From Haloarcula sp. CBA1129 (lineage in GTDB: Archaea > Halobacteriota > Halobacteria > Halobacteriales > Haloarculaceae), in assembly GCF_008729015.1 (NCBI RefSeq), contig NZ_RKSM01000001.1, positions 186,001-250,000 on the forward strand: DNA of 64,000 nt. The letters are read 5' to 3'. Below the pieces are notes generated by a model, which saw nothing but the letters and a program-made list of their open reading frames with translations, ran no database searches and was not told the DNA's origin. Of the stretch, positions 4,452 through 6,460 are shown in pieces. Positions within the stretch are counted from its first letter, which is position 1. Every line of letters begins with the position of its first letter. The position numbers and the translations under genes were made by a program.

Positions 4452-5051
4452 TCACAGCAGCGCAAGCGTGCCGCCAGCGAGACCGAGCGTCACGACGAGT
4501 CGCCCGGCACTGCCGAAGAACGTCGCCGCTCCGAACCGGTAGTAATCGCGTTCGAGGACGGTGAACGCGTAGATAGAGAGCGTGTCGGGGAAGAACGGGA
4601 CGCAGAGCGCGAGCGCCAAGCCAACGTAGCCGTACTTCTGTGCAAGCTGGACCGTCTTTTTTTCAGACCACTCGATGATGTCGAACCGCGAGCGCTTGAT
4701 TCGGCGAATGAGCGGGCCGTACTCCTTGGCTTCCTGTCCGATGTGAAAGGCGACGAGACTACCGAAAGCCTTCCCGAGGCCACTGACGATGATAATCGCC
4801 ACCAGATTCCCGTTCGTGGAGAGCCCGAGTCGGAGCGTTTCGGCTGGAACCAGCACGACTTCGCTCGGGAGCGGGAGAATGAACGCGATCAGAAACGAGT
4901 ACACCGCGATGATTCCCAGTCCGGTCGGGCCGGTGGCCGTACAGACGGCCTCTTCCAGCGGCGAGAGTGGGGTGCCGGCGGTCGTACAGTCACCGATGAA
5001 GGCAATGAACGATGCGGTCGGTACTACCAAGTCCACGCCTCTCTGTAGCAA
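4452..5051 (-). CDS. VTT (DedA/SNARE-associated) family membrane protein
   Basis: 199 residues with about five hydrophobic segments. The signature of the VTT/DedA superfamily is recognisable: a re-entrant region with Pro-Leu-Pro and acidic residue (LIAFILPLPSEVVLVPAETL), a glycine-rich GLGKAFGSLVAFHIGQ, and a second half containing KYGYVGLALALCVPFFPDTLSIYAF. Members act in membrane-lipid scrambling or polyisoprenyl-phosphate transport; what this one moves is unknown. The gene is 60 nt downstream of metG's start region on the same strand but does not look functionally linked. The start MLQRGVDLVVPTAS is the first methionine in frame. Confidence 0.82.
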   Translation of the reverse strand: MLQRGVDLVVPTASFIAFIGDCTTAGTPLSPLEEAVCTATGPTGLGIIAVYSFLIAFILPLPSEVVLVPAETLRLGLSTNGNLVAIIIVSGLGKAFGSLVAFHIGQEAKEYGPLIRRIKRSRFDIIEWSEKKTVQLAQKYGYVGLALALCVPFFPDTLSIYAFTVLERDYYRFGAATFFGSAGRLVVTLGLAGGTLALL

Positions 5052-5128
5052 ACAGGCACTTCTAAACCTTCGTATGTCTTCTCGGGAGTGCTCAATACCA
5101 GTCTGTTCGAGACCGAAGACAGGGCGTC

Positions 5129-5190
5129 AGTACCAATCGAGGTCCGCAACGAACGAGCGCAGCATCGACCGCATGACCTGCGGCACCACC
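5129..5190 (-). pseudogene. Decayed duplicate of the mfnA 3' end
   Basis: Read on the minus strand this stretch encodes [20 protein letters not shown] followed by a TGA stop. The last 14 residues ([14 protein letters not shown]) are identical to the C-terminus of the intact mfnA 280 bp away. Over the 42 nt 5129-5170 versus 5410-5451 I count five mismatches; similarity fades to about 70% over the next 20 nt and then stops. No start codon or upstream gene body belongs to it. It is therefore a fossil tail, either the original end of mfnA displaced by an insertion or a duplicated copy. Confidence 0.8.
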
Positions 5191-5409
5191 TTTTTCCACG
5201 GGGGCATCGCGCTCGCCGATGGCGAGCGCTCAACCCCCGCGCAAAAACGCGGTCTTGCAGAGCGAAGCGAAGCAAGGCTCGAAAGACGAGTAGTGCGAGT
5301 CTTTCGGTGGTGAAAAAGGCCGACTGCTCGGCCGAAGCCTCGCAGTCGGTGAACGCCGCTCGCACTGCTCGCGGCGATATATTACACTCCTCACCGCCAC
5401 GGCTGACCT
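5191..5409. repeat. Hairpin-rich insert between the two mfnA tails
   Basis: No convincing gene. The stretch is a run of perfect short inverted repeats: GCGCTCGCC/GGCGAGCGC (5209-5229, loop GAT), CTTGC/GCAAG (5254-5276), CGAAAGAC/GTCTTTCG (5280-5306), CCGACTGC/GCAGTCGG (5320-5349) and CGCCGC/GCGGCG (5354-5376). Between them is the low-complexity, GAGCGAAGCGAAG-like sequence typical of haloarchaeal intergenic insertions. Flanked by the two copies of the mfnA 3' end, the whole looks like an inserted structured repeat. Together with 5129-5190 it accounts for the 356-nt gap between the VTT gene and mfnA. Confidence 0.7.
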
Positions 5410-6460
5410 AGTACCAGTCGAGGTCCGCGACGAACGACCGCAGCATTGACCTAGTGACGTGAGGCATACACACGACGCGCATCTCGCCGGCCCCGGTCTT
5501 CGAGACCCGCCAGCCGCGGTCCCGGAGCTCGTCGGTCATCGGCATCGAGAGGTCGGCCGCGACGAGCGGGAGTTCGGGGCCGACCACGTCGTGGCCCCGC
5601 GCCGACAGCTGGTCGGCCAGCCAGTCGGCGTTTGCCATCGACGTTTCGTACTGTTGTTCATAGCCTGCCGGCCACAGCGACTCCATCGCCGCAACGGCGG
5701 AGGCCACACCGGCACCCGACCGCGTGCCCGTCAGCGTTAGCTGGTCCGTCGACTCCAGATACGGCGTTTCGACGGCGAGTTCGTCAAGCAGCGAGCGGTC
5801 ACGAGCGAGCAGCCCGCCGGCGGGAACCGCCGCCTGCCCGACCTTGTGCGGGTCAATCGTCATCGTGTCCACGGCTGCATGGCCGAAATGCCAGTCGTGG
5901 TCGGTAAACGGGAGGTAGAAGCCGCCCCACGCGGCGTCGACGTGGCAGAGGGCATCGACCGACTCGGCGAGGTCGGCGATAGCCGGAATCGGGTCGACGT
6001 AGCCGTACTCGGTCGAGCCGGCGACGCCGACGACACACACCGTGTCCTCGTCGACGAGTTCCGCCATCGCCGCCATGTTGGCGCGGTAGTTTTTCGCCGG
6101 CGCGGTCCGCAGTTCCACGCCGAGCACGTCGGCGGCCTTTGTAAACGAGAAGTGTGCGTGGACGGGCGCGACCACGTTCGGGTCGTCCGTGTCAGCGCGG
6201 TTACGGGCGATACGTATCGCTTGGAGGTTGGCTTCTGTTCCACCCGAGGCGACATAGCCCGCAGGGTCCGAGAGCCCGGTAATCTCGCCGAGATAGTCGA
6301 CGGCCTCGTGTTCCAGATCGGCGACAGTTTCGTATGTCCCGGGGTCCCCGGGATTCGTCGCGAGGAAGCGTTCCGCTGCTTCGCGTGCCGATGGGTGTGG
6401 GACGGTACACATCGACGAGAGGACCCGCTCGAAGTCCTGTGGCGCTGCCCGCTGGAGCAT
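5408..6460 (-). CDS. mfnA: MfnA-type L-aspartate/L-tyrosine decarboxylase (PLP)
   Basis: 350-residue group II PLP-dependent decarboxylase. In archaea this family makes beta-alanine from aspartate for coenzyme A (haloarchaea lack methanofuran, for which tyrosine decarboxylation serves in methanogens). The PLP lysine lies in [18 protein letters not shown] and the substrate/PLP-binding aspartate in [31 protein letters not shown], a phosphate-binding loop of the fold, is near residue 92. Length and start ([17 protein letters not shown]) fit the family. Its product beta-alanine is the substrate of the ligase encoded at 11013. The 3' end is odd: a second, decayed copy of the last codons lies downstream beyond a structured insert. 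Confidence 0.94.

Follow-up and report, generated by a model that had tools for sequence, protein, structure and literature searches.

In Haloarcula sp. CBA1129, the end of mfnA (a gene name taken over from an earlier, sequence-only reading of this DNA) is found twice, once in the gene itself and once beyond a non-coding insert. How did the second gene end arise, and why does it still resemble the first? The window is the whole stretch of DNA that was analysed, 64,000 nucleotides of contig NZ_RKSM01000001.1 (positions 186,001 to 250,000), and coordinates are counted from its first letter. The locus consists of the following parts.

4452..5051, minus strand: putative DedA-like membrane protein gene downstream of mfnA (open reading frame; named from its sequence)
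5052..5126, plus strand: downstream flank D, with homology to the sequence that directly follows mfnA in genomes without the element (aligned to genome G008)
5127..5185, minus strand: second mfnA tail copy, T', with a TGA stop at 5127-5129, adjoining the left end of the element (repeat search)
5186..5252, plus strand: element core H1, made of CCACCTTTTTC, a GGGGG-type hairpin and CAAAAACGCGG (dispersed homologues)
5253..5310, plus strand: optional module TCTTGCAGAGCG...TCTTTCGGTGG, at the same place in some other copies
5310..5348, plus strand: GTGAAAAAGG and hairpin H2; read on the minus strand, a terminator-like hairpin with TTTTTC behind it, shortly after the mfnA stop
5349..5376, plus strand: GTGAACGCC link and hairpin H3 (CGCTCGCACTGCTCGCGGCG), the right end of the recognisable element (from sequence)
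5377..5407, plus strand: spacer between the recognisable element and the mfnA stop codon (from sequence)
5408..6460, minus strand: mfnA coding sequence, tyrosine/aspartate decarboxylase family, 350 aa (open reading frame; homologues in 32/32 genomes searched)
5410..5466, minus strand: native mfnA tail, T, the right copy of the duplication (repeat search)

The two tails form a direct repeat of 57 nt (5129-5185 and 5410-5466, same strand) with 48/57 identical positions and 9 mismatches, while 60 shuffles of the region give at most 33 matches for a direct repeat of this length. The sequence-only reading had described 42 nt with five mismatches; the repeat and its strand stand, but this core (5129-5170 and 5410-5451) has four mismatches, all synonymous, and the similarity extends to the full 57 nt. 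As that reading also held, both copies encode the same 14-residue C-terminal ending and a stop on the minus strand (TAG in the native copy, TGA in the distal one). The right copy is the end of mfnA and the left one is an orphan tail. The approximately 224 nt between them contain no convincing gene; the overlapping frames in the open reading frame list cross the hairpins, and the description of the insert as non-coding is confirmed. The insert is rich in hairpins, begins exactly at CCACCTTTTTC (5186) and, treated as single-stranded DNA, folds better than its shuffles (z -4.4). A hairpin followed by a T-run, the signature of an intrinsic-type terminator 3' of a gene, is present at 5318-5335 on the minus strand; two terminator-type hairpins were found, against 0.7 expected by shuffling. 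The half of the insert that carries H2 and the T-run therefore reads as a predicted terminator for mfnA.

The mfnA insert belongs to a family of dispersed hairpins with the form CCACCTTTTTC-stem-GAAAAACGTGG. When the mfnA region was used as a query, matches appeared in 32/32 genomes of the genus, many of them at other loci. The strict pattern CCACCTTTTTC-N20-50-AAAAACGTGG occurs in 31/32 of these genomes, with up to 13 copies each and seven in CBA1129; the reversed control pattern gave no matches in the 32 genomes. The strict pattern misses variants, including the mfnA copy of CBA1129 itself, which carries CAAAAACGCGG, and degenerate copies are undercounted by such a search. In a class-wide sample it was found in 54/292 genomes, concentrated in Haloarculaceae, with more copies in related genera, and the named records include Haloarcula, Halorientalis, Halosimplex, Halomicrobium, Halovenus, Salinibaculum, Halapricum and Halorhabdus. 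It also matches a Kurthia contig and a contig of a Clostridia MAG (L283, L312), probably by chance or because the sequence was misbinned. The exact pattern was not found in viral contigs. Rfam gave no match above the gathering score and, for a long copy of the element, none at E<=0.1; its matches in the 64-kb window are weak and at chance level. A literature search, which subscription papers and preprints lay outside, returned no description of the element.

The core of the element is a hairpin with invariant ends and a covarying inner stem. Its stem positions pair in 97.8% of cells, compared to 91.4% in shuffled alignments, and 29 cells are changed on both sides, compared to 8.2. The terminal inverted repeats CCACCTTTTTC / GAAAAACGTGG (CCACcTTTTTC / GAAAAAcGTGG) are complementary at 10/11 positions, these ends having been fixed by the search pattern itself. 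Further hairpins and the optional module lie to the right of the core. At the mfnA junction, the inner hairpin is wholly different between species (L031, L037, L039, L044, L045, L060), and the GGGGG-type hairpin of CBA1129 matches a different locus of another genome (G014 C8:2379937) with 98% identity over 65 nt. From these sequences, the inner hairpin seems to be exchanged as a unit. At five other loci (L009, L010, L063, L067, L090), long versions of the element directly follow the stop codon (TAA or TAAA, then CCACC) of a gene that resembles, by sequence, the small subunit of DNA polymerase D; another conserved hairpin motif, CCTGCCCTTCCCCGGGTCGC, comes after the element, and no duplication was detected there.

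Duplicated gene ends accompany the family well beyond mfnA. The 150 nt to the left of CCACC were compared with the DNA to the right of the core in 141 distinct copies, at a score of at least 40. A direct duplication of 24-150 nt of the adjacent gene, usually its 3' end, was found in 82 copies (58%), with one copy of the repeat abutting CCACC. The controls gave 2.7% when the flank was paired with another locus and none in inverted orientation; no duplication is detectable in the remaining 42% of this first set. Copies at orthologous loci are often not independent, and the 45 distinct junctions to which the 82 duplications reduce are a better count, although some of these may share a history. 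In a second, taxon-named set, drawn partly from the same genomes and partly from other genera, 50/112 copies show the duplication (control 2.5%). By gene calls that are approximate, based on open frames and a GC3 rule and not on annotation, 68/82 repeats fall at the 3' end of the right-hand gene, and the start of the repeat tends to coincide with a stop codon. A minority lie at gene starts (ATG in L070, L079 and L109). The C-terminal sequences point to putative PheT (phenylalanyl-tRNA synthetase), Spt5, citrate synthase and GatA among the target genes. Two further genes of CBA1129, gltA and one other, show this arrangement too (L390, L387). A motif search at the gene-internal boundary of the duplication brought out only weak positions, the highest at 0.53 bit.

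Sites with and without the element can be compared at mfnA. About 18 of some 30 Haloarcula-genus genomes read, counted by eye, have no recognisable element there. When the flanks of CBA1129 are joined through T', they align without gaps over 228 nt with mfnA of genome G008 (90.8% identity); the joined flanks of gltA in G031 are 92.3% identical to G030 over 259 nt, with one 1-nt gap. T' at mfnA measures about 57, 43, 29 or 25 nt depending on the species, and always ends at CCACC or within a few nucleotides of it, the T'/element junction being kept outside CBA1129. Different lengths with one fixed end suggest separate events. Tandem tail scraps of about 25 nt without a hairpin follow the mfnA stop in G001, G003, G007, G030 and G014 (L032, L035, L036, L038, L041), and may be remains of lost elements. 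The sample holds one genome per species, which leaves closely related strain pairs with and without the element outside it.

The sequence-only reading had proposed an element whose insertion at the 3' end of a gene restores the C-terminus. The related elements at many duplicated gene ends and the empty mfnA and gltA sites support this proposal. The arrangement is neither universal nor coding, either of which would have spoken against it: among the 32 Haloarcula-genus genomes, mfnA occurs both with and without the element. We give about an even chance to the following version of it. A short non-coding hairpin element would have inserted at the 3' end of mfnA with a duplication of its target, later homogenised by recombination. 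The element would be non-autonomous, about 55-250 nt long, with a fixed left end (CCACCTTTTTC) and a right part consisting of a string of hairpins of variable length. Insertion, as the primary event, would produce a direct target duplication of 24 to about 150 nt, leaving an intact gene end T and the copy T' beyond the element. Insertions would be kept mainly where the duplication covers the gene end, since the gene is otherwise lost. In later steps, the coding part would be homogenised by T/T' gene conversion and by exchange with related strains, and the non-coding part would decay; recombination of T with T' would either excise the element cleanly or multiply it into tandem arrays.

The duplications at many distinct junctions in both sets, the species-dependent T' lengths with a fixed CCACC end, the concerted evolution of the tails and the covarying stem also count in favour of insertion, and so does the extent of the duplications. 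In a young-looking event (G013, L235), the coding end was duplicated together with about 20-25 nt of intergenic DNA. At least 10 nt of duplication past the stop codon is found in 16/30 pairs with at least 98% coding identity and in 13/50 pairs below 95%. Since well-matched pairs extend further past the stop, the original duplication often reached beyond the gene, and its non-coding part was lost first. This trend speaks against a mechanism that cuts at stop codons.

Several observations count against insertion. Known DNA transposons make short, fixed target duplications, and a variable duplication of 24-150 nt is unusual for a transposon. The copies without duplication, 42% of the first set, also count against it, as does the lack of a candidate helper enzyme. 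Finally, several well-matched duplications or long extensions take in a portion of the element, and six loci (L065, L113, L133, L154, L121, L107) carry [element + gene end] units in arrays of two to four; both observations fit a tandem duplication as easily. At L133 (G011 C1:1319199-1319778), four near-identical tandem units of element and gene start (ATGAGCGACCCGG...) follow each other with a period of 170 nt.

Tandem duplication of the gene end with its hairpin terminator is the main rival, and the arrays and the element parts in the extensions keep it a serious one, although we consider it doubtful. It supposes that the hairpin is the gene's own terminator, that replication slippage or unequal exchange doubles [gene end + hairpin], with breaks recurring at the CCACC end of the hairpin, and that the outer hairpin is then lost, which leaves T' - hairpin - T. 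The terminator-like reading of H2 and its T-run, the arrays, and the element-like sequence to the left of T' in some well-matched cases agree with it. On the other hand, element-free relatives of mfnA, gltA and other loci have a flank that continues straight into the gene end, the duplicated stretch in L235 contains no hairpin, and a terminator makes no sense at the gene starts (L070, L079, L109, L133). The left flank resembles the right end of the element in 14%, compared to 2.9% in the control, at a score of 40, which is only a modest excess.

Whichever way the duplication arose, the two tails have not simply diverged. Within a genome, T and T' share 93-98% identity in six gene families out of seven (orthologous loci) and 89% in the seventh, and tail copies of different species share 81-91%. 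T and T' differ by 8% in the 15 nt nearest the junction and by 3-5% over the following 45 nt. Away from the junction, the differences affect 73 codons synonymously and 23 non-synonymously, and most T' that map cleanly retain the stop codon. Because the copies co-evolve and their differences are mostly synonymous, the orphan tail behaves unlike decaying free non-coding DNA. We read this pattern as recombination with the functional gene, probably through conversion, through exchange with relatives and, now and then, through loss of the element. The earlier suggestion of a tail swapped by gene conversion is thus partly right, in that T and T' evolve in concert. The distal copy had also been taken for the older, untranslated end: its position supports this, being contiguous with the ancestral downstream flank, but its divergence is no evidence of decay, since mostly synonymous differences are not decay-like.

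Two cases fit recombination. The orphan tail of G017 differs at 1/36 positions from the single functional tail of G022 and at 6 from its own functional tail; in Spt5 of G007 (L118), the orphan tail is like the G001 allele and the native tail like the G014 allele. Import of the whole gene as a source of G017's differing tails was rejected, the body of its mfnA being closest to G022 throughout. G022 itself is equally compatible with having lost the element and with never having had it.

Selection for a useful T', as an antisense RNA, a 3'-UTR decoy or a translated mini-tail, could also preserve synonymous differences and the stop codon, and we judge it improbable. The transitions (79 vs 84) lack the G-U wobble asymmetry that an antisense RNA would predict, the frame that leads from the element into T' varies and is in many cases closed, and recombination between T' and the functional gene can yield the same pattern. 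Since gene 3' ends are known integrase targets that are restored on integration, T and T' could be attL/attR remnants of a tyrosine-recombinase element at the end of mfnA; this is very unlikely, considering that inserts of this one family are found beside dozens of unrelated genes, where T is unrelated in sequence and variable in length, that the pattern was not found in viral contigs, and that in place of a fixed core within an integrase-bearing element the inserts read are far too short for an integrase gene. A SINE-like retroposon, a structured RNA copied into DNA at the target, would explain why one end is fixed and the other variable, why the duplications are long and of variable length, and why the stems covary, and is equally unlikely: reverse transcriptase (PF00078) was found in 0/67 Haloarculaceae genomes (three control genomes were positive), which contradicts it unless an undetected polymerase acts. 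A diversity-generating retroelement was rejected on the same result.

The duplication of 24-150 nt is, to our knowledge, longer than that of any DNA transposon, so that either a new insertion chemistry or a hairpin-driven duplication is at work. We propose tentatively, with somewhat less than even confidence, that the family is a new class of archaeal mobile hairpin with a long and variable gene-end duplication, which would target essential genes without damaging them and whose duplicated arms would aid both clean loss and spread from strain to strain. In archaeal genomes, short non-coding repeats are mostly disregarded; this one leaves a regular, testable footprint throughout the family at the ends of housekeeping genes that are still intact. 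In polyploid archaea, its loci form a natural test system for gene conversion and repeat-mediated deletion; the frequent pseudo-tails can mislead annotation.

MITEs carry the ends of a parent transposon and produce a target duplication that is short and fixed. The hairpin element resembles them in being short, dispersed and non-coding with inverted terminal repeats, and differs by its variable duplication of 24-150 nt; the loci read contain no long version of it. Among described elements, the SMRs and PATEs of Haloquadratum come closest. SMR-A/B of Haloquadratum walsbyi are 80-110 bp long and multicopy, with inverted terminal repeats and no transposase; they reportedly make no target duplication, and SMR-A targets other mobile elements (PMC3119063). 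The hairpin element is likewise haloarchaeal, short, multicopy and transposase-free with inverted ends, but its typical long gene-end duplication sets it apart from the SMRs as described. PATEs are palindrome-associated derivatives of the IS200/IS605 type, without terminal inverted repeats or target duplication (PMC3119063). The hairpin element is similarly short, palindromic and without a transposase gene, but has both of these features.

For the later steps, haloarchaea are known to lose direct repeats together with the insert between them, without a trace (PMC3119063). Such repeat-mediated deletion fits the scattered absence of the element; it is a deletion process and not an element, and does not explain where the repeats come from. 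In polyploid Haloferax, an efficient intermolecular gene conversion is described that homogenises chromosome copies, and not two tails (PMC8223754, PMC11276520). Together, trace-free deletion and efficient conversion would supply plausible means for the loss of the element and for the concerted evolution of its two flanking tails.
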